Source: a virus
DNA length: 64,000 nucleotides
IMG/VR virus record: IMGVR_UViG_3300025879_001499
Coordinates: 1-64,000 of that record
Reading direction: 5' to 3' (one strand)
In this document: positions 16,072 through 62,384 of the stretch, piece after piece
Numbering within the stretch: the first letter of the stretch is position 1
How the letters are laid out: every line of letters begins with the position of its first letter
Notes under the pieces: generated by a model
The model's database searches: none
Told to the model about the DNA's origin: nothing
The model's input: the letters and a program-made list of their open reading frames with translations, nothing else
Position numbers and translations under genes: made by a program

Positions 16072-16707
16072 TTATTTCTTTTTCTTTAATCTACTCTTTT
16101 CTTTTCTACCTCTATTCTTACTTTCAGATTCGAAACCTACAATCTTACCACCTTTGTGTGAAGCATCTTTACCATCACCATTTCCGTAAGTACCTTTATC
16201 TCTATTGTACTTATTTAATTCAGCTCTATACTTCTTTGCTTTAGTTGATGATTGGAATTTCTTATACTCAGCTTTGTAATCTCTCTTAGCTTTCTCATCC
16301 AATTCAACTCTATCACTTTCGGTGAATTTTATGTTAGATTTTCCACCAAACTTCTCAGCTTCCTTTTCTCTGAATGCTGGTAAGTATTTGAATCGGGCTC
16401 TTTTTAGAACTTTCTTTTTCTTCTTAGCTACCCACTTTTCAATTTGTTTCCTTTGTATGATTGTTAGTTCCGATTTTGGAACATCTGGAAATAACTTATT
16501 CCTAAAGAATTCGTACACATCTCTATAAGCTGCTTTGTATGCTTTCTTATAAAGTTGTTCACTACCTTTCTTTCTCAACATTGTACGTTGACGTTTACGT
16601 TGAATCAAACGTTGCTTACCAGCCATCGCTCGTTTACGAGCCAACTTCTGCATCGGAGTTAGAGCTTCCGTTTCAATTTCGGATAATATTTCAGTTAGTT
16701 TAATCAT
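16072..16707 (-). CDS. Basic protein with capsid-targeting-like N-terminus
   Basis: The first ten residues MIKLTEILSE have the form of a T4-type capsid-targeting propeptide with a hydrophobic-x-Glu cleavage site. The rest is extremely basic (KRAMAGKQRLIQRKRQR, KKKKKVLKRARF, SRLKKKK), as expected for a DNA-associated internal head protein. The Arg/Lys-rich block LARKRAMAGKQRL resembles basic phage head proteins I have seen. It overlaps the tail-type gene 16704-17183 by 4 bp. Packaging and cleavage are inferred. Confidence 0.65.
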   Translation of the reverse strand: MIKLTEILSEIETEALTPMQKLARKRAMAGKQRLIQRKRQRTMLRKKGSEQLYKKAYKAAYRDVYEFFRNKLFPDVPKSELTIIQRKQIEKWVAKKKKKVLKRARFKYLPAFREKEAEKFGGKSNIKFTESDRVELDEKAKRDYKAEYKKFQSSTKAKKYRAELNKYNRDKGTYGNGDGKDASHKGGKIVGFESESKNRGRKEKSRLKKKK

Positions 16708-17267: not shown

Positions 17268-18905
17268 TTATCCCATCAACATTTGTGGTTGTTGAGGTTG
17301 GTTATTCTTTTCAGCCTTATCAACCACCATACATTCGGTAGTTAAAATCATACCCACAACTGAACTTGCGTTTTGTATTGCGGTACGAGTAACCTTCTTA
17401 GGGTCAATAATACCATCAGTAAACATATCCACAAATTCTTCACTCTTAGCGTTGTAACCCAAATTATTACCTCCTTCAACATCCCAATGGTCAAATAGAG
17501 CTTTGATGATATCATCGGAACGTTGTCCAGCATTTTCCAAAATCTGAGTGATTGGTGCTCTCAATGCTTCTCTAATTACATCAACTCCATCTTCTTCCCA
17601 TTGGTCCAAATCTGCGGTATTTGCAAATTCGGTTACGGCTTTCAAAGTACGAAGTAGAGCGATACCACCACCTTCAACAACACCTTCTTCAATTGCCGAT
17701 TTGGTAGCTTGAAGTGCATCATCTACTCTATCTTTCTTTTCCTTCAACTCTACCTCAGAACCAGCTCCGATGTAAAGAACTGCAACTCCACCAGCTAACT
17801 TAGCCAATCTCTCTTGCATCTTTTCCTTTTCGTAATCTGATTGCGAATCTTCAATTAGAGTTTTAATTTGTTGAACTCTCTCAGCGATTTCTTCACTTTC
17901 ACCAGCTCCGTTTACCAAAGTAGTGTTATCCTTAGATACGATAACTTTCTCAGCTACACCCAACATATCCAATGTTGCATCTTCTAACTTCATACCCACT
18001 TCAGGTTGGATGAATGTACCACCAGTTACCACAGCGATATCTTTCATAATCTCTTTCTTTCTATCACCGAAAGCTGGTGCTTTAACTGCACATACATTAA
18101 GAGCTCCTCTGAGTTTGTTTACTACTAATGTACCTAACACTTCACCTTCCACATCATCAGCGATAATCACTAATGGTTTTGAGGTTTGAGCAACACCTTC
18201 CAATAGAGTAAGGATATCGTTCATATTTGAGATTCTACCATCGTATAATAAGATGTAAGGATTCTCTAACTCAGCCTGCATCTTCTCTTGGTTGGTAGCG
18301 AAGTGAGTTGAAAGGTATCCCTTATCAAACTGCATACCATCTACTACCTCCATATAGGTTTGCATACCTTTGGATTCTTCAACAGTAATCACACCATCTT
18401 TTCCAACTTTCTCAAACGCATCAGCGATAAGTTTACCGATGTTCTCATCACCATTTGCTGATACTGTTGCGATTTGTTCTACCTTATCACCAACTTTGAT
18501 TGCTTGGTTTGATAGTTCGTTTACAATAATATCCACTGCCTTATCCATACCTCTTTTGAGGAATACTGGATTTGTACCAGCTTCTACCATTTCAAAACCT
18601 TTCTTAGCGATAGCTTGTGCTAAGACTGTTGCTGTTGTTGTACCATCACCAGCAGAATCGGCTGTTCGTTGTGATACATCCTTTACCAATTGTGCTCCCA
18701 TATTAAGGTATGGATTTTCCAAATGGATTTCCTTTGCTACACTCACACCATCTTTGGTAATGTGTGGTTGACCTGGTCCTTTTTGGAGTAGAACATTTCT
18801 ACCCATCGGTCCAAGTGTTACTTTTACTGCATCCGCTAGGATATCTAATCCGGTTTTCAGAGCTTCTCTTGCTTCTGAATTGAACTTCAATTGTTTACTT
18901 GCCAT
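17268..18905 (-). CDS. groEL: Chaperonin GroEL (60 kDa, Hsp60)
   Basis: The full-length protein has 545 residues. It has the ATP-site motifs TLGPMGRNVLL and DGVSVAKEI, the DGTTTATVLAQAI hallmark with the catalytic Asp, GGVAVLYIGAGSEVE and EEGVVEGGGIALLR. The C-terminus is NNQPQQPQMLMG instead of a GGM repeat, a common phage deviation that changes the cavity floor. It forms a double-ring folding chamber with GroES in the cytoplasm, probably for phage virion proteins. The gene follows groES by 9 bp. A phage with its own full groESL operon is unusual but known in large phages. Confidence 0.97.
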   Translation of the reverse strand: MASKQLKFNSEAREALKTGLDILADAVKVTLGPMGRNVLLQKGPGQPHITKDGVSVAKEIHLENPYLNMGAQLVKDVSQRTADSAGDGTTTATVLAQAIAKKGFEMVEAGTNPVFLKRGMDKAVDIIVNELSNQAIKVGDKVEQIATVSANGDENIGKLIADAFEKVGKDGVITVEESKGMQTYMEVVDGMQFDKGYLSTHFATNQEKMQAELENPYILLYDGRISNMNDILTLLEGVAQTSKPLVIIADDVEGEVLGTLVVNKLRGALNVCAVKAPAFGDRKKEIMKDIAVVTGGTFIQPEVGMKLEDATLDMLGVAEKVIVSKDNTTLVNGAGESEEIAERVQQIKTLIEDSQSDYEKEKMQERLAKLAGGVAVLYIGAGSEVELKEKKDRVDDALQATKSAIEEGVVEGGGIALLRTLKAVTEFANTADLDQWEEDGVDVIREALRAPITQILENAGQRSDDIIKALFDHWDVEGGNNLGYNAKSEEFVDMFTDGIIDPKKVTRTAIQNASSVVGMILTTECMVVDKAEKNNQPQQPQMLMG

Positions 18906-18908
18906 AAC

Positions 18909-19199
18909 TTATACTATCATTAAAATTTCTGATTCTCTTACTAAGAAGTAATCCTCACCATCCAATCGAACCTTCTGTCCACTTCCATTGTTGATAAGAA
19001 CTTTATTACCTACTTCTACACTTAATTTAATTAGTTCACCATTACCACCAATGAATCCATCGGATACTGAAACTACTTCAGCGGTTTGAATGGTTTGAGT
19101 GGATTGATTTAAAATAATACCACCAGTTGATTTTTTCTCAGATACCTCTTCTAATTTAAGAAGAACCCTATCTGCAAGGGGTTTGCCATAAACTACCAT
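18909..19199 (-). CDS. groES: Co-chaperonin GroES
   Basis: At 96 residues it has the family length, with KPLADRVLLKLEEV at the N-terminus, a mobile-loop region (EVSEKKSTGGIILNQST) that contacts GroEL, and VGNKVLINNGSGQKVRLDGEDYFLVRESEILMIV at the C-terminus (strand positions as in GroES). It caps the GroEL chamber. It lies directly upstream of groEL and 10 bp after the small gene 19210-19467, under the promoter at 19473-19504. Confidence 0.95.
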   Translation of the reverse strand: MVVYGKPLADRVLLKLEEVSEKKSTGGIILNQSTQTIQTAEVVSVSDGFIGGNGELIKLSVEVGNKVLINNGSGQKVRLDGEDYFLVRESEILMIV

Positions 19200-19209
19200 A
19201 AACTTATTT

Positions 19210-19467
19210 TTATTTTATTTGTTCGTAATCATTTACTAAATCTCTGAAGATAGCACATAATTCGTACTCTTCTATATCTTCATTATACTTCATTAATAAC
19301 TCAATCCAATCCACACCGAAACCTTTTACTAATTCAATAGGGTCAACTTCATATCTATGGTATGCTTCCATAAACTCCTGAGTTAAATCCATCAACATAG
19401 CTTCTTTAGGTTCACCAAAGTGTTTTATGAATCCTTTAACTGTCTTTATATCTTCTAATTCAAACAT
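19210..19467 (-). CDS. Small acidic protein leading the groESL transcript (85 aa)
   Basis: The product (MFELEDIKTVKGFIKHFGEP...) is acidic and helical with Tyr and Leu-rich ends. It starts about 6 nt after the -7 box (19473-19480), so the transcript would be nearly leaderless. A longer frame starting at 19503 runs through the promoter and was rejected. Its place as first gene with groES-groEL hints at a chaperonin-related or regulatory role, but no family is recognised. Confidence 0.6.
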   Translation of the reverse strand: MFELEDIKTVKGFIKHFGEPKEAMLMDLTQEFMEAYHRYEVDPIELVKGFGVDWIELLMKYNEDIEEYELCAIFRDLVNDYEQIK

Positions 19468-19472
19468 AGTTA

Positions 19473-19504
19473 CAAATATACGAAAAATATTCCAATTATA
19501 CAAA
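19473..19504 (-). promoter_or_regulatory. Promoter of the groESL transcript
   Basis: TTTG (19501-19504), a 20-nt spacer and TATATTTG (19473-19480). It separates groESL from the bilin genes, so chaperonin expression does not depend on read-through. Confidence 0.7.
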
Positions 19505-19523
19505 TACTGACAAATCGTCAGTA
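19505..19523 (-). terminator. Hairpin at the 3' end of the bilin reductase gene
   Basis: TACTGAC pairs with GTCAGTA across 5 nt and spans the TGA stop codon of the bilin reductase; TTTGT follows. It is short and may be a weak terminator or an mRNA 3' stabiliser. Confidence 0.4.
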
Positions 19524-20186
19524 CATTTTTATTTTAGGGAACAAAACTTCCTTCATAAAGTACTCTGCTCTCTCTTTTCCAATGTTTGCCGTTAATGCTC
19601 CCATTGTTCTTTTGTTGGATGCTTGGTGTTCACAATATGTATTCTGATTTTCTATGATGGTTTCAATATCATTTACATCATCAGTAATATCCTCATCCGA
19701 ATTTACCTTATCCATCCACTTTTGAAATGCTTCAAATCCAACTTCGAAGATTTTCTCATATTCATCCTCAGTAGGTCTTACTGCAATGAAACTCTCAGAA
19801 AATACAGTTGCCCAAACGGGTAACTTTCTATCTTTATTCCAAGTTGAATCGTGCCATTTCTCTTCGTACATCACAGGAGACCAATCTATGAATACTCCAC
19901 TAATCTTCGATGTACCCTTTTCTTCATCTTCATAACCTACTACATCAAACCCAAAGATAGGTGCCTTAGAATTCTCAGTTGGGAAAGCAGTAATGTGTAC
20001 CACTTGCAATCCTTTGTGAGAATATCTTTCAACATGAGCCAATCTGAATTTATCATTTTCATAGCGATAATTTTCCCATCCGTAATCATCAGTTGGTACT
20101 TCAGTAACCCCACTCTGAGATTCTATCAGTTCTTTGAACTTCTCTGAGTGGTAGTATATCCTATCTTTTAGTTTGTAGTAACTCAT
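19518..20186 (-). CDS. Ferredoxin-dependent bilin reductase (PcyA/PcyX/PebS family)
   Basis: The 222-residue protein aligns by eye over its length with PcyA-type enzymes: KFRLAHVE, LQVVHITAFP, APIFGFDVV, ISGVFIDWSPV, VWATVFSESFIAVRP and YCEHQASNKRT..EVLFP. These enzymes reduce biliverdin with electrons from ferredoxin to give phycocyanobilin or phycoerythrobilin. Positions equal to PcyA Glu76, His88 and Asp105 are kept (Glu53, His64, Asp81). The position equal to PcyA Asp220/PebS Asp206 is Lys192, so the reaction outcome may differ. The gene overlaps the heme oxygenase gene by 4 bp (ATGA), which provides its substrate. The phage metagenomic PcyX enzymes are the closest precedent I know. The bilin product cannot be told from sequence. 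Confidence 0.88.
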   Translation of the reverse strand: MSYYKLKDRIYYHSEKFKELIESQSGVTEVPTDDYGWENYRYENDKFRLAHVERYSHKGLQVVHITAFPTENSKAPIFGFDVVGYEDEEKGTSKISGVFIDWSPVMYEEKWHDSTWNKDRKLPVWATVFSESFIAVRPTEDEYEKIFEVGFEAFQKWMDKVNSDEDITDDVNDIETIIENQNTYCEHQASNKRTMGALTANIGKERAEYFMKEVLFPKIKMY

Positions 20187-20695
20187 AGTGTTTTTTCCAA
20201 TTCTCCCATGATATCAATCATAAAATCAAAACCTCTATTCACTTCATCAGCCCACTCATCTTTTTGGATTGCTCTAATGTGTGCAGCAGATTCGTTCATA
20301 TCTTCGAACTCATACATATTACCATCACCTGGCGTAACTCTCTTCATCATCTGCCCACCAAACATAATGGCTAGGTAGTTAAGATAGATGTGAGCATTTA
20401 CAGTCTCTTGGTCTAAATCTTTGAGGTAGTTTACATATCGTAGAGTAGCCTCATCAGTTTTGATAGTTCTACCAATGTTCAATGAACTGATATCTTTACT
20501 AACTGCATACTTTCGTTTCAATCCTTCATGTGGCATCTCAAAGTTATCTTCGATAATTGAGAATATTCCCAACTGAGATGTTAGGTATTGTGCATATTGT
20601 TCGTTGGTTAGTTCACCTTTAAACATTTTCACATTGAATGGCATTCTTTCTACCTCTTTGTGTTTATCGTGTGTTGCTTCTTTTAGTGGTTTCAT
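20183..20695 (-). CDS. Heme oxygenase, short form
   Basis: The N-terminus LKEATHDKHKEVER carries the proximal heme ligand (His12, in place of HO-1 His25). FKGELTNEQYAQYLTSQLGIFSIIE and AHIYLNYLAIMFGGQMMKR follow, the latter matching the distal-helix GGQ motif. It opens heme to biliverdin, CO and Fe2+. At 170 residues it is much shorter than cyanobacterial HO1 (about 240). The distal Asp (Asp140 of human HO-1) is Ile110 here by a gapless alignment, so the proton-relay network must differ. The stop overlaps the start of the bilin reductase, giving a heme-to-bilin operon. Confidence 0.87.
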   Translation of the reverse strand: MKPLKEATHDKHKEVERMPFNVKMFKGELTNEQYAQYLTSQLGIFSIIEDNFEMPHEGLKRKYAVSKDISSLNIGRTIKTDEATLRYVNYLKDLDQETVNAHIYLNYLAIMFGGQMMKRVTPGDGNMYEFEDMNESAAHIRAIQKDEWADEVNRGFDFMIDIMGELEKTL

Positions 20696-20928
20696 AATTT
20701 TGTTATTTCTATTACTATTTCAGTTTTGTTACGATGGAGTTCATACCCAGTCCATCTATTATCTAATTTGAATATCTTTGAAAAATTAAATACCTCAATC
20801 TCATTACCATCTACCCACCCCATAAGTGAATTGGGTGCATAATCTATACCTAAACTGGTTATTTTATTTTCCAAATATAGTTTTCTTATGTGTGGTTTTA
20901 AATTTAATATTGGTATGTGTATTGTCAT
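20692..20928 (-). CDS. Hypothetical protein upstream of heme oxygenase (78 aa)
   Basis: It has strand-rich segments (THIPILNLKPHIRKLYLENK, TEIVIEI) and a GWVDGNEIEVFNFSKIF centre. It overlaps heme oxygenase by 4 bp and the next upstream gene by 4 bp, so it is part of the bilin transcript. No heme or ferredoxin motif is visible. Function unknown. Confidence 0.6.
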   Translation of the reverse strand: MTIHIPILNLKPHIRKLYLENKITSLGIDYAPNSLMGWVDGNEIEVFNFSKIFKLDNRWTGYELHRNKTEIVIEITKL

Positions 20929-21119
20929 TTTTTATTTATGTTTGTCAAAATTTCACCCAATTCATAAATAGTATCTACTGCCCAAACGCACCCACAATCG
21001 TTAGGTCTAAATACCCACTCATTCAATCCATCTAATATAATGTTTCCTGCATGCTTGCCTGTATTTTTGGATACTACTTTGATATTTCTATCATCTATGG
21101 GTTGTATTTCTAATCTCAT
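20925..21119 (-). CDS. Hypothetical protein (64 aa)
   Basis: A small beta-rich protein (MRLEIQPIDDRNIKVVSKNTG, WVFRPNDCGCVWAVDTIYE) with a CGC motif. It is translationally coupled to the next gene by a 4-bp overlap. It could be a small DUF-type adaptor; no family recognised. Confidence 0.55.
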   Translation of the reverse strand: MRLEIQPIDDRNIKVVSKNTGKHAGNIILDGLNEWVFRPNDCGCVWAVDTIYELGEILTNINKK

Positions 21120-21294: not shown

Positions 21295-22311
21295 TTAATT
21301 ACTTAGAGGTGCTTTAATTGTTGGGTGATATTCATAATCGTTGATTGTGTAATCAAACTCACCATTAAGTATATCCACATTTGAGAACTCGGCTGTTGGT
21401 AGTTTGTATGGGTCTCTACCAATTTGTTCTTTGGCTTGTTGGATGTGGTTCTTATATAGATGTACATCACCTAAGTTACCAATCAACTCACCAGCAATCA
21501 TATTACATTCATCAGCTATGAGTTGTAGTAACGTACCATATGATGCGATGTTAAATGGTAATCCTAAGAATGTATCCACACTTCTCTGATTCCACATTAG
21601 TGATACCACTTTGTATTTACCAGGATTTACAATCTTTTCTTCTCTCGTAGAATTCCTCGTATAGAGTTGGAATCCATAATGACATGGGGGTAGAGTCATT
21701 TCGTCTAACTCACCCACATTCCAAGCTGATACCATCAATCGTCTACTATCAGGATTGTTTTTTAAATCTACAATCACCTTAGCAATCTGGTCAATTTGTA
21801 GTAGGTAACCTTCACCCTTAGCAACATTAAACTTTTGTGATTTCCAATCTCTCCATTGCTTTCCATAGATAGGACCTAACTCACCCCATTTACGAGCAAA
21901 CTCATCATCGGTTTTGATTTTTTCAATGAATTCTTCTTGTGATAGAGGCCCACAATCACAAGTATCGGTATGACCACAATAACAATCTATATAATTATCC
22001 CAATCCCCACTTTTTGGTTTAGATTGTTTACTAATATAGTTCTTATACGCATCACCATTCCAAATGTTGCATCCGTTATCAACCAAATATTTGATGTTGG
22101 TATCTCCCTTTAAGAACCACTTCAATTCAGTCATCATAGTTTTGACTGCCATCTTCTTTGTAGTTAGGAGTGGGAATCCCTCACTCATATCGTGTCTGAT
22201 TTGTTTACCAAACACACTAATAGTACCAGTTCCAGTTCTATCTTCCTTTTCTACACCTTTACCCAAAATGTGTTGTAGTAATGCTTTGTACTTTAAATCT
22301 AAATTATTCAT
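21295..22311 (-). CDS. thyA: Thymidylate synthase with Cys-rich insertion
   Basis: ThyA converts dUMP and methylene-tetrahydrofolate to dTMP. The folate/phosphate-site start (KEDRTGTGTISVFGKQ), LPPCHYGFQLYTR with the nucleophile Cys210, WNQRSVDTFLGLPFNIASYG and GDVHLYKNHIQQ are all present. At 338 residues it is about 70 longer than the E. coli enzyme. The main insertion (about residues 91-145) contains CYCGHTDTCDCG, four Cys in a CxC...CxC arrangement that could hold zinc or an iron-sulfur cluster. Phage thymidylate synthases supply thymidine for an AT-rich genome. Confidence 0.95.
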   Translation of the reverse strand: MNNLDLKYKALLQHILGKGVEKEDRTGTGTISVFGKQIRHDMSEGFPLLTTKKMAVKTMMTELKWFLKGDTNIKYLVDNGCNIWNGDAYKNYISKQSKPKSGDWDNYIDCYCGHTDTCDCGPLSQEEFIEKIKTDDEFARKWGELGPIYGKQWRDWKSQKFNVAKGEGYLLQIDQIAKVIVDLKNNPDSRRLMVSAWNVGELDEMTLPPCHYGFQLYTRNSTREEKIVNPGKYKVVSLMWNQRSVDTFLGLPFNIASYGTLLQLIADECNMIAGELIGNLGDVHLYKNHIQQAKEQIGRDPYKLPTAEFSNVDILNGEFDYTINDYEYHPTIKAPLSN

Positions 22312-29358: not shown

Positions 29359-29390
29359 CAAATATACGAAATTATTTTTATTTATACAAA
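29359..29390 (-). promoter_or_regulatory. Promoter for the epimerase operon
   Basis: TTTG (29387-29390), a 20-nt spacer and TATATTTG (29359-29366). The -33 region overlaps the end of the methyltransferase gene. Confidence 0.65.
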
Positions 29391-30697
29391 TAAATCCAAT
29401 CCGAATGTTTACTATCTTTTATTTTCTGTCTTACCCTTTCCGATGATATCCCAAAGTATTCACCAGCTTCTTTTAACGAATAGAACTCTATATCATTACA
29501 TTTAATTATAGGATATTCCATTACAATCTCATATTCCCACATAGATTCCATATCTTCATAAGTAATATCCCAACCATCTACTTTCTTCCAATGTCTATAA
29601 ATTGGGTTGTTAGATTCAATTCTATTTCTACATTCCATTTCACTTAACTCACACAACTTAGATATTTGTATTGGTGATTCAAATGGAATATTTCCCACAA
29701 CATATTTTATTTTAGGTTTCGTTTCCTCACCAATGATTTGCCAATCCTTATACGATGATTTGGTACTCCTACACCTTCTCTCTACTTCAGATGCTACTAA
29801 TTTGTTTGGGTCTATATCAATTGCAGCATGGCGAAAAGTCAAGTATTTTGTACCATTTACTTGACACATTGGTTCACCACCTTTGATTTCCTCAGTTGCA
29901 ATATCAGGGTTTCCTTTTACGAATACCAATACATTTTGATGTACTGATGGTATCTTACGATTTCTATCAAAGTAAGTTTTACCAACTCGAGATGCTTGGT
30001 GTTGTGAATTAAAGAGAATCATATCGTTATAGAATGATAACCCATGCTTCTCACACATTTGAATGGTTTTGTGAACTAATCCTCTATACTTTCCAATAGA
30101 ATAATTTCCCGTAGTAGATGGTTCTCTAACTTCAGAAACCACAATGGCAAAGAAACGATTGTTCTTTAATTTAATTGAGGATTGGTACAATATAGATTCT
30201 AAGGATTCATCAAACTGAGATTCACTCATTTGAGATAAATCACTTTTATTATCCGAATACACTTCTAAATCATAATAAGGTGGACACGTAAATACAAAAT
30301 CAAATTCATCCTCTAAACCAAATACTACCTTTTTAGAATCACCGAATATCCAATTTGGTTTATCTGATTGTTCTTTGTTGGCTAAGATTTGAGATTCAGA
30401 TAAATCGATACCTGTATAACTTCTACCCATTTCCTCTGCTACGATTCCTCTAACCGAACCTCCAGCAAATGGGTCTAATACACTTCCACCCTTTGGTGAA
30501 AACCAATCGTACATTACTTCACATAAAACCGGGTCAAATATAGAAACATTAGTAGATGGATTATCCCAAAATATAGTTTTACTTTGGGTATCCTCTCTAC
30601 CTAATTCCGATTGGATACCATAAGTAGTAATCCAATGTTCCTTACGCTTCTTCCACTCCTTTGTACGTGTATCTAAGACTGAAAATGGTGTTATCAT
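29378..30697 (-). CDS. DNA methyltransferase with C-terminal HTH-like module
   Basis: The SAM site VLDPFAGGSVRG (about 74-84) with GRSYTGIDLSE and the catalytic FTCPPYYDLE (about 136-145, a variant of D/N/S-PP-Y) place it in the N4-cytosine/N6-adenine amino-methyltransferases. The order motif I first, then IV, fits the gamma-type or phage DNA-modification group. The C-terminal 150 residues carry two NUMOD-like helix-turn-helix segments (PIQISKLCELSEMECRNRIE and SLKEAGEYFGISSERVRQKI), probably for target recognition. No cognate nuclease is adjacent, so it may protect phage DNA from host restriction. Confidence 0.83.
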   Translation of the reverse strand: MITPFSVLDTRTKEWKKRKEHWITTYGIQSELGREDTQSKTIFWDNPSTNVSIFDPVLCEVMYDWFSPKGGSVLDPFAGGSVRGIVAEEMGRSYTGIDLSESQILANKEQSDKPNWIFGDSKKVVFGLEDEFDFVFTCPPYYDLEVYSDNKSDLSQMSESQFDESLESILYQSSIKLKNNRFFAIVVSEVREPSTTGNYSIGKYRGLVHKTIQMCEKHGLSFYNDMILFNSQHQASRVGKTYFDRNRKIPSVHQNVLVFVKGNPDIATEEIKGGEPMCQVNGTKYLTFRHAAIDIDPNKLVASEVERRCRSTKSSYKDWQIIGEETKPKIKYVVGNIPFESPIQISKLCELSEMECRNRIESNNPIYRHWKKVDGWDITYEDMESMWEYEIVMEYPIIKCNDIEFYSLKEAGEYFGISSERVRQKIKDSKHSDWIYLYK

Positions 30698-34861: not shown

Positions 34862-36073
34862 CTAAAACATCGGAATCTCATCTTCCGAATTCGTTTCGGT
34901 TTCCTGCTCAGTAAAGAGAGCTTCACCCTCATCCTTCACATACTTCTGAACTAATTGTTTAACATAAGTTCGTTCAGAATCAACCCCACCATCGTTAGAG
35001 AAGAATGGGAAGATTGAAATCTCAGCTGATTCGAACAAATCAAAACCATCATAAATCAATCCAGCCATCTCAACACTAGCACGAGTGGAAACCATTGCTG
35101 TAACTTTACCCGAATCACTCATCGATTGAGTACGAGTGTGGTGAGCGATTTCAGCCACAGCTTTTAAATCTTCTTCGTTCACTTCAGGGAACATAAACTT
35201 CAACAATCCGAACTCTTGCTCATCATTTAGAACATCCATCTCAATGGTTACGAATCGGTCAAGAATCGCTCTATCAATAACTCTAGTCGAAGTGTATTCG
35301 TTACCGATGTTAGCGGTAGCGATGAAAGTAACACCTTCAGCCACTTTCACAATTGGAGAACCTTCAGCCTCATCCAAACGTAAGTAACGTTGTCCACCAT
35401 CTAAAACGGTCATTAGGATGTTCCAAGCATCAGGGTGAGCACGAGATAACTCATCTAATAGAATCACAGCGTTTGGAGTTTTGATTGCTTTCACAAACGA
35501 TGATTCAGAGAAGTAAGTTCCGTTATCTTTGGAGAACTGAGTGTTCCCAATCAAAGTAGCACGAGGGTCTTGCGTTGCTCCTAAGTTGAAGTAAAAATCA
35601 GGACGGTCAAGTGCTTTAACCAAAGCCTTAGCAGCCATAGTTTTACCACAACCAGCAGGTCCGGTCATCATAATGTTTTTAGCTCGAACTGCTGAACGAA
35701 CTAAGTACTTCCACTTTAGTTCAGTCATCACCAACTCAGTTGGTTTTAGATTGAATGAACCATTGTGGATAAAATCTTTAATAGCCGTATGGTCCGTTTT
35801 ATCCTCAAATTGAACTTCACCTTTATCGGTGTTCATTGGGATAACTAAGTTGTTGTAAACATCCATACCAACTTTTCGGTAAACTTTCTTACCATTCTTT
35901 TGAATGTAGGCTTGAATAGCATCACCATTCTCATAGGCCCCTTTACGAGTACCAGTAGTAACACCCATTGTACCAACTTTAGTACCTTTGGTGTCAATTA
36001 ACTTAAATGAGTTTCCAAACTTTTCTACTTTGTAAACTTCATTTTTAACGAATCCGATTTTGAAATCTGTCAT
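34862..36073 (-). CDS. MoxR/CobS-like AAA+ ATPase
   Basis: The 403-residue protein has an N-terminal KOW-like or beta region (about 1-90) and an AAA+ core with Walker A GPAGCGKT (138-145), Walker B AVILLDELSRAHPDAW, sensor 1 FIATANIG and arginine-finger region VIDRAILDRFVTIEMD. This is the AAA_5/CobS type that acts with a VWA-domain partner in metal insertion or complex remodelling. The VWA partner is encoded just upstream (36508-38619). The ATG at 36071-36073 was chosen; the longer TTG-started frame runs through the structured leader. Confidence 0.87.
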   Translation of the reverse strand: MTDFKIGFVKNEVYKVEKFGNSFKLIDTKGTKVGTMGVTTGTRKGAYENGDAIQAYIQKNGKKVYRKVGMDVYNNLVIPMNTDKGEVQFEDKTDHTAIKDFIHNGSFNLKPTELVMTELKWKYLVRSAVRAKNIMMTGPAGCGKTMAAKALVKALDRPDFYFNLGATQDPRATLIGNTQFSKDNGTYFSESSFVKAIKTPNAVILLDELSRAHPDAWNILMTVLDGGQRYLRLDEAEGSPIVKVAEGVTFIATANIGNEYTSTRVIDRAILDRFVTIEMDVLNDEQEFGLLKFMFPEVNEEDLKAVAEIAHHTRTQSMSDSGKVTAMVSTRASVEMAGLIYDGFDLFESAEISIFPFFSNDGGVDSERTYVKQLVQKYVKDEGEALFTEQETETNSEDEIPMF

Positions 36074-36164
36074 AACTTTTAACATTTTAGGGTTTAAACA
36101 TTTGGGGAACATCCCCACTCTCAATTACTATACTAATATACGAAAACTATTTGAGACTACCAAA
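36074..36164 (-). promoter_or_regulatory. Promoter and structured leader of the AAA+ gene
   Basis: TTTGGTA (to 36164), a 20-nt spacer and TATATTAG (36133-36140). The leader has ATTGAGAGTGGGG, a GGGG/CCCC hairpin (36104-36116) and TTTAAACCCT. The TTTGGTA lies in the 3' arm of a TACCAAA/TTTGGTA hairpin that ends the previous transcript. Confidence 0.65.
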
Positions 36165-36507: not shown

Positions 36508-38619
36508 TTATTTTTGAAGAAAAAGCCCGTTAATAGTTTTAGTGATTTGTGAAACATTGGTTACGTCTATCAAACGTGCCCCCTTACCATACATTGTTTT
36601 GAATCCTTCAGATGGTTCACCATTTGTTGGTATCCATTGTTCAACATAGTAAGAAAGAGTCTTAACTCCCATTCCTTCAATCTTCTTCACCATCTTACGA
36701 GTGTGTTCGAAGGCTGATTGACCTGAGTAATACATCTCACCATTTTCGAAGTAAGGTTCACCATCTGAGATGTTAAGGAAGTAAGAATCCATATCGTTAT
36801 TGGCTGGTAAGAAGTTATCCATAATAGCTTCAAAACACAATCCCTCAGGAGTAGTACCACTCACATTAAGTGCTGGGAACATTTGTTTTACCTTTGAGAA
36901 CTTATCACTACGAGAATCATAAGCCATCACAATGTAAGGTTTACCATTTGAAGTAGTTCGGAACGATACCTGAATCGATAGGTTCTGAATCATATCAACT
37001 GCTTTACAAAGTGCAACCACATTAGTCATTGTCTTATTCCACTTATCACCATTCATAGAACCACTAGCATCGATTGAGATGTGTAGGTTAGCTTTTTTGT
37101 AAGAATCAGTCTCCATATATTGGAACACATTCTCATTTCCAAATCCTAATGAAGAAATCATTCTTCTATCAATCTTACCATGCTTTTGGCGATTGAAGAT
37201 GGTGTTTCTATCTTCACCACGAACTTGAAGTTTCTTACCTAAGATGGTTCCGATTCGAACACCTTCAGCAACTTCTTTTTCATTGTATCGTTTGATTGGC
37301 CCATCTTCAGAGATATTCCAATAGTTGTTTGAGGTCATTGGGAACATCTCAGATTCCAAAAGTGATTGAGTTAATTTCTTAACTACAATACATTGAGTAC
37401 CTTTCATAATTCTACCCCAATAGTTTTGAACACCATCACCAACAGTTTTCAACTCAGAACCACTCTCATCGATTGCAGAAACGTTATCGTTATCTTTTTT
37501 AGAAATGGTTTTCTTACGAACATCACCATCCATAAACTTCTTCTGCTTCTCAATTTTCTTTTTAAGTAACTCCTTTTGTCTATCTGAAAGAGTAACTTTT
37601 TCAGAACCATTAGAATCTGATTGAGATGGTTGTCCACCTTCCATATTTTGAGGAAGATTATCTACATCCATTCCACCACCACCAGTTGGTTGAGAATCCA
37701 TATTACCACTAATTGAAGATGAACCATTCATTTGGTTTGAGAACTCTTCAAACTCTTCATCAGTCATTTCACGAGATTCGTTCGAATCAGAACCACCACC
37801 TTGTCCGTTTTGAGATTGTGAATTCTCACCATTCTCACTTTGCCCATCACCTTCACCTTCACCATTTTCAGATGATGGTAGGTTAGCCATAATGATTTGA
37901 AGTACTTTAAGAGCGATATTAAACGAATCTAAGGAACTCTTTAATCGGTTGATAGTACCTAACCCAATTACCTTATAAATCTCTCTTAAACCCTTTAGTT
38001 TAGAGAGTTCAGTATTTTTGTTGTGAAGGTTGATGATTCGGAACATATAAGAATCAACACACTCTTCAGTATGTTCATCAGAAAGAAGAGCTTTATCAAT
38101 CAACTTATCATTGAAGTACTTATCGTACATTGCTCGGTAGTAATCACGATAGCCAGGAGCCGAATCGAAAACGAAACGGTCAATACGTCTATCTTCAATC
38201 ACATTCCACAAATCTTTTACAACTGAAACTGGATTAGTGATACCCTTCTTAATAGCCCCATCCTTAATGTGTTGAGGAACTAAGTTGTAAATGTTGTGAA
38301 GGTGTTCGAAATCAGTTAGTTTGATGTGAGAACCCTCATGCAATGCCAAACCAACAGCAATATCGAAATCTTTTGGTTCAACTACATTAGAACCAATTAC
38401 AACTGCTTTACCATCCGTATAAGAATCACCTCTTTGGTTAAAGGTAACAGGGATAGAATCGTTGGTTACAATGTTTACGAAGTTAGAGATAGCTCGTTTA
38501 GAAGCGGCTAACTTATAAAGGTCATTTGATTTTCTTTCAACATCGGTTAAAGTATCTGAGATGATATCATCATCTTCCCAATCTTTTAGCCAATAAGAAG
38601 AATTTCCGTACTTACTCAT
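36508..38619 (-). CDS. VWA-domain protein with an HExxH motif (CobT-like)
   Basis: The 703-residue protein has three parts. The N-terminal part contains GLALHEGSHIKLTDFEHL with HEGSH (about 94-98), a zinc-protease-like motif. A long Ser/Asn/Gln/Gly-rich linker (about 255-350) follows. The C-terminal VWA domain (about 510-703) has the MIDAS residues DASGSMNG, SGTTPEG and ISDGEP. It probably partners the MoxR-like ATPase at 34862-36073 in ATP-driven remodelling of another complex, as in CobS/CobT or MoxR/VWA pairs. The start ATG at 38617-38619 was chosen after the leader. Confidence 0.83.
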   Translation of the reverse strand: MSKYGNSSYWLKDWEDDDIISDTLTDVERKSNDLYKLAASKRAISNFVNIVTNDSIPVTFNQRGDSYTDGKAVVIGSNVVEPKDFDIAVGLALHEGSHIKLTDFEHLHNIYNLVPQHIKDGAIKKGITNPVSVVKDLWNVIEDRRIDRFVFDSAPGYRDYYRAMYDKYFNDKLIDKALLSDEHTEECVDSYMFRIINLHNKNTELSKLKGLREIYKVIGLGTINRLKSSLDSFNIALKVLQIIMANLPSSENGEGEGDGQSENGENSQSQNGQGGGSDSNESREMTDEEFEEFSNQMNGSSSISGNMDSQPTGGGGMDVDNLPQNMEGGQPSQSDSNGSEKVTLSDRQKELLKKKIEKQKKFMDGDVRKKTISKKDNDNVSAIDESGSELKTVGDGVQNYWGRIMKGTQCIVVKKLTQSLLESEMFPMTSNNYWNISEDGPIKRYNEKEVAEGVRIGTILGKKLQVRGEDRNTIFNRQKHGKIDRRMISSLGFGNENVFQYMETDSYKKANLHISIDASGSMNGDKWNKTMTNVVALCKAVDMIQNLSIQVSFRTTSNGKPYIVMAYDSRSDKFSKVKQMFPALNVSGTTPEGLCFEAIMDNFLPANNDMDSYFLNISDGEPYFENGEMYYSGQSAFEHTRKMVKKIEGMGVKTLSYYVEQWIPTNGEPSEGFKTMYGKGARLIDVTNVSQITKTINGLFLQK

Positions 38620-38703
38620 ATTTTTAGTTTTAGGGTTTAACATTGGGGTTCTATCCCCACTCAATTACAGTACTAATATAAGAAATGTTTTTGACATACA
38701 CAA
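38620..38703 (-). promoter_or_regulatory. Promoter and structured leader of the VWA gene
   Basis: TTG-TGTATGTCAA (TTG at 38701-38703), then TATATTAG (38673-38680) at 20 nt. The leader has GTACTGTAATTGAGTGGGG, a TGGGG/CCCCA hairpin (38644-38659) and GTTAAACCCT. Confidence 0.68.
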
Positions 38704-39089: not shown

Positions 39090-39926
39090 TCAAAAATTTC
39101 TCCAGCCAATGAATTTTTGTTGAACAAATGTCTGAGTATCGTAATCCTTTTCAAAGTATGGATAGTACATAAATGAATCTATCTTAGGTTCTAATCGTTT
39201 GAATGAATTCAAATTATGCCAATACAATGATGTATTTTTAATATCATCTAATGTAGAATGCCACTTATATAAATAGAAGTTCATTTGGTATTGGTGATAC
39301 TTCAACGATTCCAAATGAGATTCCTCTCCTCTGAGATGTCCACTTTGAAAGTGGTCTGTGATTACGTTGTTATCAATTGGATTGTAAACTCTACCATGAT
39401 AGAAATCATTTATAGATGTTCTATGTGGTAAGTAACGATATGCTCTGAAGAAGTAATCCGATTCTTGATATCCGATATTACAAAATCTCTCATCCCACAA
39501 TCCTATCTTACGGATAGCATTAGATGTATAACTCATAAAGGTATCACCAGCACCTAATTGAACCAAATCATAGTTGATGTGATTCTTCATCACTTCCTCT
39601 AAGAAGTTAGGAGTAAATGTTGTATCATTCTGAGAAGTAATAACAACATCACAATCGGGTTCTTTTAGGTTTACAAATCCGTTAATGATGGCTTGATTCC
39701 AATTCCTAGTCAAATGTCCAGTTGAAAAATCAGCTCTTGTTTGGTTGTGGAGTACAGTAACTTTATTAGTGAACCAATCATCCATTTTAAAGTTGGAATG
39801 ATTGTTTATAATGAATAACTGATATTGTGTATTATCGTAACGTTCTAATGTAGGTTTAAGAGTTTGTAGACTCGTATTCAATACATCGTTATTATTGTAT
39901 GTAACTATAAAATGCTTTATTAACAT
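39090..39926 (-). CDS. Glycosyltransferase-like protein (GT-A fold)
   Basis: A 278-residue protein with the GT2-like start KHFIVTYNNNDVLNTSLQTL, FIINNHSNFKMDDW and VVITSQNDTTFTPNF as the likely acidic metal site. Position and family suggest sugar transfer to a surface glycan or phage component. The sugar is unknown. It starts the 39090-42791 glycan group. Confidence 0.72.
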   Translation of the reverse strand: MLIKHFIVTYNNNDVLNTSLQTLKPTLERYDNTQYQLFIINNHSNFKMDDWFTNKVTVLHNQTRADFSTGHLTRNWNQAIINGFVNLKEPDCDVVITSQNDTTFTPNFLEEVMKNHINYDLVQLGAGDTFMSYTSNAIRKIGLWDERFCNIGYQESDYFFRAYRYLPHRTSINDFYHGRVYNPIDNNVITDHFQSGHLRGEESHLESLKYHQYQMNFYLYKWHSTLDDIKNTSLYWHNLNSFKRLEPKIDSFMYYPYFEKDYDTQTFVQQKFIGWRNF

Positions 39927-39934
39927 TGTGTTTT

Positions 39935-40108
39935 TTAATATTCATCATCAAAGTGAGATATTGGGGAATCCATATCTAAATCTCTGATTAAGAAATTTAT
40001 CTCCTTTCTCACATCTTCAACTTGCTCCCAATCCTCATATGATATTGCTTCATCTAAAATTAGATTGAAGTTTTGTAATTTATCAATTATATTTTCCATT
40101 TTTTTCAT
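39935..40108 (-). CDS. Small acidic helical protein (57 aa)
   Basis: ATG at 40106-40108 opens a 57-codon frame ending in FDDEY and a TAA. It is acidic and helical (DEAISYEDWEQVEDVRKEIN). A second Met at residue 4 could also start it. Function unknown. Confidence 0.55.
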   Translation of the reverse strand: MKKMENIIDKLQNFNLILDEAISYEDWEQVEDVRKEINFLIRDLDMDSPISHFDDEY

Positions 40109-40142
40109 ATTTTACTTAAATATGATTTTTTCAAAAAAGTGG

Positions 40143-41612
40143 TTACATTGTAAATGTTTTTTTAATATCATTTACCCATACAACATCTTTATTTGGTATC
40201 AATTCCATAAAATCAGATAGTACAATATGGTCTTTATCTAAAGTATCACAATATCTCTCATCTGCGGTACCTTTAGATGTTCTGGTTATATTTAATCCTT
40301 CTTTCATAAATTTTATAGGTACACTTATCTTATTCATATGAGTATGCAAAAAGTGCTCATGTGGAACCATATAATGCCCCTTACCCAAATGTTCCATCAT
40401 AAAGAAATAACAAGTAGAATAATAATTCATCATCTTTGGTGAACCATACGCAAATAAATCCGATATACCATCACTATTATTATAGTTGTTTAATCTTATT
40501 CTCCCATTTGGTACCGATAATGTATTATCTATATCAATAGTTAATGGATTTGTAAAAAATATATCAGTTCTAGCACGTATTACAACATCATAATCAATAC
40601 CAAATGAGTTAGTTAACATATTAGCCCTCCAAACTTTGTACCACATCGCCATAGTACCAAAATCATTACAAGACTTCATTAAATTAGATAATATTGTATT
40701 TGGTGGATTTATATGATGTCTAAGTGGTTCTAATGTTGATTTATCAAATATATCATAACGTTCTACTTCCATCTTCTTAACGTTGTATATCTTATGGAAG
40801 TTATTTATAGTATCCCCAATTTCAACATTTTCAACATCCCAAAAGGATGCATATACATCTATATCATATTTGTTGATTAACTCCAACCAATAATCTTTAG
40901 TTCGTTCCAAATCTCTAAGGTGTCCTGAAAAGCAAATAGCCATCTTAGTTTTGGGAGTTACCTCCTTACGTTTTATTTGGATAGCCTTTCGTTTAAATAC
41001 ATCTGAGAAATATTCTAAATCATCTTTCCACAATTGAGTTAATTGTTCTATTTGGTCTGAAGTATACATATCCTCTTTACGAAAATGAGTATTAGTTATA
41101 AATTCTGAATGATTGTGTATTGTTATACCAAATTCCTTAGCCAACTCCGATATATCGTTTGATAAATCATTGTAACTTAATACAATACTATTATCATCTA
41201 ATAACCAGTTACCATCAATATCCTTTAGTTGTGAAAATAAACTAGCCCTATAAGTAGGTACATGAAATATCTGAGTTCTATCTAAGTATATGTTTAAGAA
41301 ATCATTGAAAGTATCAGTTTTATGTTGATATCTACTCCATGCCCAATTTGTGTTCCAATAATCGTACAATAACTCAAATGGGTCTTTTACTATTGTTATA
41401 ATTCTATCACCAGAGTTTATATTAAAGTTATCAACTGGTTGAAACAGCCCATGCTCTCTATCAGGATTTTCCCAGTCACCCCACCCCTTTATCCGAGTTG
41501 GGTAGTTCCATTGGTTTGAATGAGTTGTATCAATTTCAATATTTTGGGAATTTATTAAATCCCTAAGAGATGTCCATTTGGTTGTTGGTAGCCCTATTAA
41601 AATATTTTTCAT
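40143..41612 (-). CDS. Sulfotransferase-like and GT-like fusion protein
   Basis: The 489 residues appear to form two domains. The first (about 1-210) opens KNILIGLPTTKWTSLRDLIN and includes RIITIVKDPFELLYDYW, similar to the PAPS-binding strand-loop-helix and RDP block of sulfotransferases. The second (about 225-489) starts MAICFSGHLRDLERTKDYW and has YDVVIRARTDIFFTNPL, where a DxF pair resembles the metal motif of a GT-A glycosyltransferase. The product could put a sugar and a sulfate on one glycan. Both domain calls are from short motifs. Confidence 0.6.
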   Translation of the reverse strand: MKNILIGLPTTKWTSLRDLINSQNIEIDTTHSNQWNYPTRIKGWGDWENPDREHGLFQPVDNFNINSGDRIITIVKDPFELLYDYWNTNWAWSRYQHKTDTFNDFLNIYLDRTQIFHVPTYRASLFSQLKDIDGNWLLDDNSIVLSYNDLSNDISELAKEFGITIHNHSEFITNTHFRKEDMYTSDQIEQLTQLWKDDLEYFSDVFKRKAIQIKRKEVTPKTKMAICFSGHLRDLERTKDYWLELINKYDIDVYASFWDVENVEIGDTINNFHKIYNVKKMEVERYDIFDKSTLEPLRHHINPPNTILSNLMKSCNDFGTMAMWYKVWRANMLTNSFGIDYDVVIRARTDIFFTNPLTIDIDNTLSVPNGRIRLNNYNNSDGISDLFAYGSPKMMNYYSTCYFFMMEHLGKGHYMVPHEHFLHTHMNKISVPIKFMKEGLNITRTSKGTADERYCDTLDKDHIVLSDFMELIPNKDVVWVNDIKKTFTM

Positions 41613-42055
41613 TTTTTATAGTTTTGAATTATATCTGAACAAATACCTATTGTTCCTTCAATTGGTTCTTTATTAAATACTTCGGGTAATACCAAAATAC
41701 CCCTATTGTATAAGTTGGTTGACCATATGTAATTATGTGATGTAAGAACACCCATATCCACATCATGCGAAAAGTAATTGAATTGAGATGATTTGGTATC
41801 ACCATATTCATTGAAGTAGGATAATGCATCCATATTCTTACAATGAATCCAAAGTGAAGGTGAACGATTTTCCAACCATTCCAATGATACCTCATATTGA
41901 GGTTCATCATGACCTAATAATAACTTACCATCTTCATACCAAACATCAATCTCCACATCATACCCCTTTGAAATTGCTTCATCGATATAATCAGGGTGAT
42001 TTTCCCTTTCGGTATTTTTACCTTCTAAGTTTCCTCTATGTGATATCAGTATCAT
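41609..42055 (-). CDS. Glycerophosphodiester phosphodiesterase-like protein
   Basis: The N-terminus ILISHRGNLEGKNTERENHP with DVEIDVWYEDGKLLLGHDEP carries the H-R, E-x-D and H-D catalytic triad region of the GDPD family. At 148 residues it is shorter than cellular GDPDs (about 250), so one C-terminal part of the TIM barrel is reduced. It may trim teichoic-acid-like or phospholipid head groups. It overlaps the fusion gene by 4 bp and ends before 42057. Confidence 0.7.
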   Translation of the reverse strand: MILISHRGNLEGKNTERENHPDYIDEAISKGYDVEIDVWYEDGKLLLGHDEPQYEVSLEWLENRSPSLWIHCKNMDALSYFNEYGDTKSSQFNYFSHDVDMGVLTSHNYIWSTNLYNRGILVLPEVFNKEPIEGTIGICSDIIQNYKK

Positions 42056-42056
42056 A

Positions 42057-42791
42057 TTAAAATGGTGGTGGTTGTAACAATTGATTTATATTTGATAAGC
42101 TTAGATTATCCTCTGGAATGTAATTACTTTCCCATACTTTATTGTAAACATTAGCCACAACTTTATATGGTTTAAGGTTTTCCAAATCTATGATTTCAAA
42201 ATTATCAACCATCATTTGGATACCATCGTTGGAATCAAATTCATTTTGATATTTTTCCCTAAGATAAGCGTTGGTTAAATGCATTTCAGGTTCATAAAAT
42301 AACTTCATCTCACCATTAACCATATGTTTGATACTCATCATATCAAATCCAATTTTAGATGATTTAAACATAGTTTTTAAATTATCAGTTGTACCAGCTA
42401 TAATATGGTCTGATATATGGAATTTCCATTGATTAAAATGCCTAAACCATATAGGAGAACAATAAATTTTGTTTGGATGTGATTGTAGTGAATTAACTAA
42501 TGAGTTTAAATTTGAATAGTACTCATCTCCCCTAACTTTGATTGAATATTCAGTATCGGATAGCATCAACCCATTTAGAGTTGAAGTGAACTGATAGTTC
42601 ATTCGTTGTGGACCTGATTTAAGAGGTGGGTTTGTAGTTACAAACTTTACATTATGTGGGATGTACGATAAATCCAATGTATGATTAGTCCAAGTTGATA
42701 TTACAATTGGATTATATGGATATGTTTGGATGTAAAAATTGTATGATTCTTGGGTTATTAACCCTTGAACTATTATCGTAACATTTTTCAT
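42057..42791 (-). CDS. WavE-like glycosyltransferase
   Basis: The 244-residue protein starts KNVTIIVQGLITQESYNFYI and continues with YPYNPIVISTWTNH and QRMNYQFTSTLNGLMLS, then SIKVRGDEYYSNLNSL, which resembles the WavE family of LPS-core biosynthesis proteins. RGDEYYS is its likely metal site. It would modify a surface polysaccharide. It is followed within 2 bp by the GDPD-like gene. Confidence 0.75.
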   Translation of the reverse strand: MKNVTIIVQGLITQESYNFYIQTYPYNPIVISTWTNHTLDLSYIPHNVKFVTTNPPLKSGPQRMNYQFTSTLNGLMLSDTEYSIKVRGDEYYSNLNSLVNSLQSHPNKIYCSPIWFRHFNQWKFHISDHIIAGTTDNLKTMFKSSKIGFDMMSIKHMVNGEMKLFYEPEMHLTNAYLREKYQNEFDSNDGIQMMVDNFEIIDLENLKPYKVVANVYNKVWESNYIPEDNLSLSNINQLLQPPPF

Positions 42792-51860: not shown

Positions 51861-52274
51861 TTACAATCTACCCCACTCCGAAATACTTTCTTTGAGTGGT
51901 TTCATACCACCCTTAACTCTGAGTGTATTCAATTGTTTAATTACCTCTTTTTGTTTTTGAGAGTTCGGTATTGTTTTCAAAGCTTGAGTCATTAACTTAT
52001 ACATCTCAGCTTTCTCAGATGATGATAATGATTCGTTCATCTCTCTAGCATACATCTTCATCTTAACATCCATATCAACAAACCTCACTTTGATGTTTTG
52101 TTGTTTGTAGAAACGATTAAGTGTTCTTACCAAATCACTAATTACCGATTTTACCTTCTCTTTATCATTCTTATCCGTAACCCAAAAGAACTCTTGTGGA
52201 AAGAGTTCTCTAACGATGTTTGCAATCGATATGGTTAGGGATGATTCGTTTAATATATCAGTTAGCTTAATCAT
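51861..52274 (-). CDS. Putative packaged protein with capsid-targeting-like tag
   Basis: The N-terminus MIKLTDILNE|SS matches the tag form (hydrophobic-x-Glu at residue 10) seen in other proteins here. The rest is helical with two extra internal sites (REMNESLSS, LKESISEWG). The ATG at 52272-52274 was chosen because it lies right after the stop of the 620-residue gene (TAATATG). No enzyme motif is visible. Confidence 0.65.
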   Translation of the reverse strand: MIKLTDILNESSLTISIANIVRELFPQEFFWVTDKNDKEKVKSVISDLVRTLNRFYKQQNIKVRFVDMDVKMKMYAREMNESLSSSEKAEMYKLMTQALKTIPNSQKQKEVIKQLNTLRVKGGMKPLKESISEWGRL

Positions 52275-52275
52275 A

Positions 52276-54445: not shown

Positions 54446-54697
54446 TTAGGATACATCCATTGCATCATTATGAGTAAAGGTAATACCCTTCTTCTTCAAA
54501 GTTTTAGCAAGCTTTTCCATATCATCATAATCGTATCTATATGGTAACTCAATACCATATCTATCTTCAAAATCCGGTTTGTACATCTTCTTACCATCCA
54601 CAACTATCTTATATAGTTTACCACTACGGTCTAAATAAGTTGCATCAATCTTCTTTGGATTTTTTGCTTCTGAAAGTAATTCTTTTAGTTTAATCAT
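54446..54697 (-). CDS. Small protein with capsid-targeting-like tag
   Basis: The N-terminus MIKLKELLSE|AKN is the clearest tag in the window: ten residues ending hydrophobic-x-Glu followed by Ala, as in T4 internal proteins. The remaining 73 residues are Lys/Asp/Tyr-rich (YRYDYDDMEKLAKTLKKKG). It is probably a small internal head protein after cleavage. Confidence 0.65.
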   Translation of the reverse strand: MIKLKELLSEAKNPKKIDATYLDRSGKLYKIVVDGKKMYKPDFEDRYGIELPYRYDYDDMEKLAKTLKKKGITFTHNDAMDVS

Positions 54698-56583: not shown

Positions 56584-57456
56584 TTAAAGTGATTCTGAGA
56601 ACTTTTGGAGTACTTCCCTCATTATATCATTGGAGTATTTCTTACCATCGTGCTTTAAATCAAATACTTTTATTTTATCTTTATACGATGGTTCTCTATG
56701 CTCCTCATCCTTATCTTCGGTAATGTACAATCCGTTTAATACATATTGTGATATATCAACACCAACGTTCTTAGCGATACCAGATGCAAACATAGCGAAT
56801 GTATCTTCTGAACCATATCCTCCAAATTCTTCAGGTATTCCAATTTTATCCCAAAACTCCTTTGAGTATAGAGTGTGCATACCACATCCAAACTTAAACA
56901 CACTTAACTCACCCAAAGTAACTTCGGTTGGTTTTTGAGTAAATGTATTGTTCCAACATTCTTTGGTTCTAAATTGTTGCATCTCTTCATTTCTGAAATT
57001 AGGATGTACTAACGGGTCCCAACTACTATCCCACCAACGAGGAATATTCGGAGATATTACATACTTTCCACTCACTTGCTCAGATGCCATTAGTTGCATT
57101 TTCAGTTGTTGTTCGTGGATTGAGATATCAGGGTCAACAAAGATAAACTGGTCATAATCTAATTTGATTACCTCTCTCTTTTGTTGAGTTGTTCCCCATA
57201 GAGAATTATCTACTACGATTTGAAGATATGAACGAATACCCTCCATTGACTTGGTAAATTTATCAATAAACCATTGTGGTTTCAATTCACTATTTTCCCA
57301 ATCAGTCAATTCAGGATTTAGATTAAGTGTAACATACATAGTTACATCATCATTATCATCCAAATATTTGAATCCCTCTTTATAGTAGGTGATGAATCTC
57401 TCAAACATCTCCAACTCCAATGGCATTACATGAGTTACAATTAAGGTTCTTTTCAT
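56584..57456 (-). CDS. GT-A-fold glycosyltransferase-like protein
   Basis: The 290-residue protein begins KRTLIVTHVMPLELEMFERF and has YDQFIFVDPDISIHEQQLKM with a DPD metal site (DxD), followed by GGYGSEDTFAMFAS, whose EDT resembles the catalytic-base loop of GT2-like enzymes. Sugar and acceptor are unknown. It heads the 56584-64000 glycan locus downstream end and overlaps the next gene by 1 bp. Confidence 0.75.
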   Translation of the reverse strand: MKRTLIVTHVMPLELEMFERFITYYKEGFKYLDDNDDVTMYVTLNLNPELTDWENSELKPQWFIDKFTKSMEGIRSYLQIVVDNSLWGTTQQKREVIKLDYDQFIFVDPDISIHEQQLKMQLMASEQVSGKYVISPNIPRWWDSSWDPLVHPNFRNEEMQQFRTKECWNNTFTQKPTEVTLGELSVFKFGCGMHTLYSKEFWDKIGIPEEFGGYGSEDTFAMFASGIAKNVGVDISQYVLNGLYITEDKDEEHREPSYKDKIKVFDLKHDGKKYSNDIMREVLQKFSESL

Positions 57457-60725: not shown

Positions 60726-60729
60726 TCTA

Positions 60730-62382: not shown

Positions 62383-62384
62383 TC

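Follow-up and report, generated by a model that had tools for sequence, protein, structure and literature searches.

A heme oxygenase and bilin reductase gene pair, probably for bilin synthesis, in a T4-like phage with a probable Bacteroidota host

We analyzed a window of 64,000 bases, the whole stretch of DNA considered here, out of a 71,262-base virus record. The minus strand holds 114 of the 119 called genes, among them a heme oxygenase (HO) gene followed, in reading direction, by a gene for a ferredoxin-dependent bilin reductase (FDBR). The features of the locus and the promoters of the window are as follows.

17268..18905, minus strand: groEL, a conserved neighbor
18909..19199, minus strand: groES, a conserved neighbor
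19210..19467, minus strand: conserved protein of 85 aa, function unknown, between FDBR and groES and within the groES–groEL unit
19473..19503, minus strand: Bacteroidota-type promoter TTG-N20-TATATTTG, ending 6 bp short of the following gene's start codon
19518..20186, minus strand: FDBR, 222 aa, with PcyA-type catalytic residues E53/H64/D81
20183..20186, minus strand: 4-bp ATGA overlap of the HO stop and the FDBR start
20183..20695, minus strand: HO, 170 aa, assigned by Pfam, PDB, alignment, AlphaFold2, and Foldseek
20692..20928, minus strand: ORF of 78 aa, function unknown, overlapping the HO start by 4 bp
20925..21119, minus strand: ORF of 64 aa, function unknown, overlapping the neighboring ORF
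21295..22311, minus strand: ThyA-type thymidylate synthase, recognized by eye, the upstream gene
3416, 11167, 19503, 29389, 30751, 32630, 44485, 46265, and 60760, minus strand: example positions of nine promoters

The sequence-only reading had proposed that two overlapping genes encode an HO and an FDBR. Both ORFs lie exactly where it had placed them, and Pfam, PDB sequence matches, AlphaFold2 with Foldseek, and the trees agree on the two families; profile and structure searches put both proteins inside them. The HO matches PF01126 (Heme_oxygenase) with an E value of 4e-16 and 59.8 bits against a curated cut-off of 23, over profile positions 6–142 of 204, as a compact HO. Human HO-1 and HO-2 are its closest PDB entries by sequence (best HO-1, 1e-5), and the top Foldseek matches of its AlphaFold2 model (pLDDT 96.3) are all HOs (HmuO, HO-1, HO-2). 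The FDBR matches PF05996 (Fe_bilin_red) with an E value of 9e-24 and 84.8 bits (curated cut-off 31). By sequence, its best PDB match is PcyX_EBK42635 (6e-19), followed by PcyA (3e-13); the top Foldseek matches of its model (pLDDT 93.7) are all FDBRs, with PcyA first (E 1e-13). Relative to homologues, dN/dS is 0.06–0.16 for the FDBR and 0.16–0.35 for the HO, well below 1, and both genes are under purifying selection. The pair is seen again in dozens of viral contigs. Chance or misannotation is ruled out by the profile, fold, and conservation tests.

The ATGA overlap, which recurs at the HO 3′ end in related loci, implies that translation of the two genes would be coupled. When viral contigs were scanned with an HO-only profile, 77 loci came up, every one of them with an FDBR; this count speaks for this HO family only, because the profile was built from linked loci. 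The FDBR overlaps the HO 3′ end in 76 of them; in the remaining locus, L167, a truncated FDBR follows after 254 bases. HO–FDBR pairing is thus obligate in these data.

The gene order downstream of the pair in the window (85-aa gene, groES, groEL) is repeated in L002, L003, and L004. It is also found in L016 and L008, with one extra small gene after the FDBR, the L016 contig ending inside groEL. Upstream, homologues of the 78-aa and 64-aa ORFs precede the HO in L005 and L004, respectively, and ThyA-type genes lie near the cassette in L002, L004, L016, L071, and L076. A single operon with groES–groEL loses ground, because a Bacteroidota-type promoter intervenes and the same motif occupies the corresponding position in L005/L007 (near 10945), so that it is present in two lineages. 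No consensus promoter was found directly before the HO. With the promoter separating the FDBR from the groES–groEL unit, HO–FDBR probably closes the transcription unit of the thymidylate synthase gene upstream.

Two related loci show a further arrangement at the FDBR 3′ end, where similar GIY-YIG-type homing endonuclease-like genes are found (L023:6610-7206 and L084:5613-6206). For the L023 gene, the Pfam search yielded just a weak NUMOD3 match. Beyond this gene the FDBR C-terminus (residues 191–219) occurs a second time, as if the insertion had replaced the tail.

E53, H64, and D81 of the FDBR correspond to Glu76, His88, and Asp105 of Synechocystis PcyA in an alignment of the window protein with 51 others. 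The three equivalents are kept in every complete FDBR of the window's tree clade, a 27-row viral clade with support of 100/99. Asp stands at the Glu76 position in Mosig, PcyX (5owg), L041, and L043. One scan pattern contained that Glu and was biased to it; the earlier scans and the HO-only scan did not require it, and among the 42 further FDBRs reached through the HO-only scan, 28 read EHD, 10 DHD, and 2 SHD, with 2 unreadable. PcyX (100/100), alphaproteobacterial PcyA (100/99), and a second viral group (n = 11, 90/86) form separate clades, and a 99/99 branch parts the viral and alphaproteobacterial rows from the cyanobacterial PcyA rows. Since the window FDBR does not group with cyanobacterial PcyA, we call it PcyA-type rather than a cyanobacterial PcyA.

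Three other identities were rejected. PcyX does not fit, as the window has Glu, not Asp55, at the Glu76 position and lies outside the PcyX clade; for PebS, neither clade nor residues fit. The pre-PcyA enzymes, which lack Glu76 and are linked to BBAG/V4R or B12-binding genes, are set aside by the Glu of the window FDBR.

The sequence-only reading had proposed phylogenies of both proteins, and these place the HO in a clade that matches that of the FDBR (26 rows, support 95/87), so the pair travels together and is co-inherited. Of the five host HOs included, four group in another branch; the cassette was thus not taken from a typical host bphO–bphP locus. Across all viral loci, the HO motif tracks the FDBR type, A[IL]xxGGQ occurring with FDBR Glu and GD(L)(S/R)GGQ with FDBR Asp. 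This match of motif and type suggests that HO and FDBR evolve as a pair.

A host among the Bacteroidota, which are non-photosynthetic bacteria, as first read from the DNA, is strongly supported and very likely. The window combines TAnnTTTG promoters bearing an upstream TTG with a near absence of Shine–Dalgarno sites. Nine TTG-N19-21-TATATTTG sites lie on its minus strand, each 5–40 bp upstream of a start codon, and they have the form of Bacteroidota vegetative promoters. Most of the nine have CG or TTTTCG just ahead of TATATTTG. With naive ORF calling and one rule for all genomes, Shine–Dalgarno-like sites precede 5 of 111 genes in the window (5%), 5 of 91 in Flavobacterium phage immuto (5%), 14 of 47 in cyanophage P-SSM2 (30%), 10 of 16 in pelagiphage Mosig (62%), and 35% in Microcystis phage Mel-JY01. 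In a 270-kb relative, G007, the capsid protein shares 52% identity with its counterpart in immuto, 51% with that in Mel-JY01, and 39% with that in Rhodothermus phage RM378. A decayed FDBR of the window clade, 54% identical to that of L069, lies in a Bacteroidetes MAG, next to an FG-GAP-repeat protein with a lipoprotein-like start:

L047:4929-5420 (contig CANHDN010000108.1, Bacteroidetes MAG): the decayed window-clade FDBR, interrupted by stops and lacking an HO

Scans of bacterial genomes gave no match with a narrow FDBR alignment and nine loci with a broader one. One of the nine, L041, lies on a 335-kb MAG contig assigned to Neomarinimicrobiota (G014, C57) that carries a PcyX-type FDBR, an HO, a CN-hydrolase, and a protein homologous to one of the window's structural proteins; given this homologue, the contig is probably a large phage binned into the MAG. 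Mel-JY01 (PP395634) was deposited with a cyanobacterial host; it shows 51% capsid and 57% CobS-like identity to the window lineage, and its Shine–Dalgarno share is much higher than that of the window.

Several other features of the window were recorded. An Rfam search returned tRNAs only. Unrelated proteins at 16072-16707, 51861-52292, and 54446-54697 share an N-terminal MIKL(T/K)(E/D)(I/L)LxE motif, also found in L023 and L037, which we take to resemble a T4-type capsid-targeting sequence cut by the prohead protease. A CobS/MoxR-type AAA ATPase lies close to a VWA-domain protein (34862-36112 and 36508-38643), and the closest phage homologues of the ATPase are in Mel-JY01 and a 484-kb uncultured phage. 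The C-terminus of a DNA N6/N4 methylase-like protein (29378-30697) weakly matches sigma-70 region 4, and blocks of glycosyltransferase-like and other sugar-modification-like genes occupy 56584-63720 and 39090-42791.

Taken together, we consider it probable, with good though not complete confidence, that the phage is T4-like, infects a Bacteroidota host, and has in this locus a cassette of two genes for making a bilin, converting heme through biliverdin to a reduced bilin, likely phycocyanobilin (PCB). From the sequences we infer two active enzymes in series. The HO, with host-supplied electrons, would open heme with alpha regiochemistry to biliverdin IX-alpha, CO, and Fe2+; the FDBR, with host ferredoxin, would then carry out a four-electron reduction of biliverdin, most likely to PCB. 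No 2Fe-2S ferredoxin was found in 17 viral records. With modest confidence, we take the wanted product to be the reduced bilin and not iron, the bilin serving as an antioxidant or as a ligand for a sensor of the host, for example a phytochrome.

One specific form of the sensor idea, tentative at about one chance in four by our reckoning, is that phage PCB replaces biliverdin as the chromophore of a Bacteroidota bacteriophytochrome and changes its light response. In a sample of 395 genomes from the phylum of the Bacteroidetes MAG, a PHY domain scored over the cut-off in 37 and an HO in 42, mostly adjacent. None of the 395 holds an intact FDBR, the single match being the seed itself, with an internal stop, so the phage FDBR would add a step missing in the host. 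The PcyA of phage CB_2 moreover supplies Cph1 (PMC11480375). Against this, about 90% of the sampled genomes lack a phytochrome, bacteriophytochromes normally take biliverdin, and no sensor is seen in the phage records. The sequence-only reading had noted that the window lacks a phytochrome, and indeed no PHY, GAF, or phycobiliprotein genes were found in the record. Nor were PHY, GAF, or phycobiliprotein/phycobilisome domains found in the phage records searched, which are incomplete, so an acceptor could be missed; no phycobilisome-family protein was found in 17 viral records. The search for phytochromes that it had proposed was positive, together with an HO, in about 10% of host-type genomes and negative in the phage records searched.

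Somewhat less probable still is that the pair serves to break down heme, whether for iron, for CO, or to detoxify it, with the FDBR only draining biliverdin. HOs do release Fe2+ and CO. Iron supply has been discussed for phage cassettes (PMC11480375). However, an FDBR accompanies the HO in every one of the 77 loci, and iron salvage needs no FDBR. Related cassettes also hold heme-making genes: hemA lies directly after the FDBR in L021 (GlutR_N, E 1e-35), a ferrochelatase lies near the cassette in Mosig, and alaS is found in published cassettes. These heme-supply genes weaken iron release, which had been listed among the possible uses of the bilin pair.

The L021 gene (L021:6658-7623, IMG/VR contig 3300032607_001425) encodes a 321-aa glutamyl-tRNA reductase HemA with GlutR_N and NADP domains and no dimerisation domain, a C5-pathway counterpart of the published alaS cassettes. 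A PF00745 search for HemA in the records returned nothing, as the L021 protein lacks the dimerisation domain. As a regular partner of the cassette, hemA was rejected, L021 being the only case in a close-relative scan of viral contigs.

The sequence-only reading had proposed a phycobilin product; the bilin now expected from a PcyA-signature lineage apart from PcyX is PCB, not phycoerythrobilin (PEB). Only PcyA has Glu76, which 18-vinyl reduction requires (PMC10151467), and the CB_2 phage enzyme, which lacks the PcyX Asp55, makes PCB (PMC11480375). The conserved PcyA triad and a clade apart from PcyX, together with these two results, make PCB the likely product and the best prediction. We give roughly one chance in five to the alternative that the FDBR works like PcyX rather than PcyA and makes another phytobilin (PEB, phytochromobilin, or a two-electron product). 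Its best PDB sequence match is PcyX, a PEB-maker, phage HO–FDBR cassettes characterized before CB_2 gave PEB (PMC11480375), and pre-PcyA enzymes lacking Glu76 yield phytochromobilin and PEB (PMC10151467). Nevertheless, the window FDBR and all complete members of its clade have Glu in place of the PcyX-specific Asp, this clade is separate from PcyX, and Foldseek ranks PcyA first, the 5owg model being incomplete.

The proximal His of the HO is H12 (human His25), and the distal helix, YLAIMFGGQ, keeps the Gly-Gly pair; H12, G113, and G114 are invariant in 31 of 31 aligned HO sequences. Ile110 stands at the human Asp140 position, so that the distal Asp of canonical HO-1/HmuO is absent. Most members of the window clade read YLA[IL]xxGGQ, with Ile or Leu at this position; the distal helix of PcyX-linked HOs reads GDLSGGQ. 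The lost Asp and the short length (170 aa) could mean that the protein does not work as a heme oxygenase and instead, for instance, binds heme or acts as a peroxidase. Asp136/Asp140 of canonical HOs is a mutagenesis target (D136A/N/E structures are among the Foldseek matches), and regiochemistry or activity could differ in its absence. We judge a non-functional HO improbable, given the invariant residues, the confidently predicted HO fold, and the constant pairing with an enzyme that needs biliverdin. Bacteroidota BphO-type HOs likewise lack the distal Asp; its loss alone thus does not mean inactivity, and Asp140 is not diagnostic of the whole HO family.

A cyanobacterial host, in which the pair would serve phycobilisomes in the manner of cyanophages, is very unlikely: T4-like relatives of one tail protein include cyanophages and the G007 capsid is nearly as close to Mel-JY01 as to immuto, but Shine–Dalgarno use is 5% against 30–35% in P-SSM2 and Mel-JY01, the window carries TAnnTTTG promoters, its FDBR lies outside the cyanobacterial/cyanophage PcyA branch, and no photosynthesis gene was recognized among the annotated parts.

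The bilin-making reading can be set beside several known systems. The sequence-only reading had confined known phage bilin genes to cyanophages and PcyX, a view that published work overtakes: HO–FDBR phage cassettes outside cyanobacterial hosts, one with PcyA activity, have been reported, among them pelagiphage and vAlaS cassettes and that of freshwater phage CB_2, with an HO and a true PcyA (PMC11480375). CB_2 vHemO/vPcyA resembles the window pair as a phage HO and FDBR outside cyanobacteria whose FDBR lacks the PcyX Asp, with PCB shown for CB_2; it differs in its proposed alphaproteobacterial host and in also having alaS, its three genes forming a broken cassette (PMC11480375). Comparing CB_2 by description only, we would guess that it belongs beside the second viral clade (n = 11; L024 and others), whose members use Shine–Dalgarno sites. 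The vAlaS cassette has three genes, whereas the window has no alaS beside the pair, its neighbors being the ThyA-type gene, small ORFs, and groES–groEL. PcyX and HemO of marine phages and pelagiphage Mosig likewise form a two-gene overlapping cassette in T4-like phages, but PcyX has Asp at the Glu76 position, makes PEB, pairs with a GDLSGGQ-type HO, and forms its own clade; the PcyX/Mosig-type FDBR is 31% identical to that of the window. Cyanobacterial and cyanophage PcyA share the Glu76/His88/Asp105 triad and the fold with the window FDBR, yet are only about 23–29% identical, come with cyanobacterial hosts, and lie outside its clade. The alphaproteobacterial PcyA cassettes, represented here by Falsiroseomonas/Roseomonas and in the literature by Bradyrhizobium ORS278, have an HO adjoining PcyA in non-cyanobacteria and the same triad; they differ in being chromosomal, in their BphO-type HO, and in their separate clade. 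PebS of cyanophage P-SSM2 is a phage FDBR that performs a four-electron reduction, but belongs to another FDBR branch and lacks the His/Glu pair.

A literature search, with most subscription journals outside its coverage, returned nothing on Bacteroidota phages with bilin genes. Four things are new here: the FDBR clade, the type of host, an HO partner without the distal Asp, and a relative that carries hemA.

The making of phycobilins is commonly seen as part of photosynthesis, and bilin making by non-cyanobacterial phages has been called enigmatic (PMC11480375). Here a large, well-supported, and widespread phage clade keeps HO–FDBR under purifying selection, with hosts that lack an intact FDBR or phycobilisomes. 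The two small, expressible proteins make this enigma testable in Flavobacterium-type systems, and they add a new PcyA-signature lineage for studying how Glu or Asp at one position sets PCB versus PEB. Phages of heterotrophic Bacteroidota might even load a phytobilin that the host cannot make into bacteriophytochromes, or use it as a dedicated signal, and so reprogram host light sensing during infection. We regard this as a long shot; if true, a single widespread phage lineage would be hijacking light signals outside photosynthesis.
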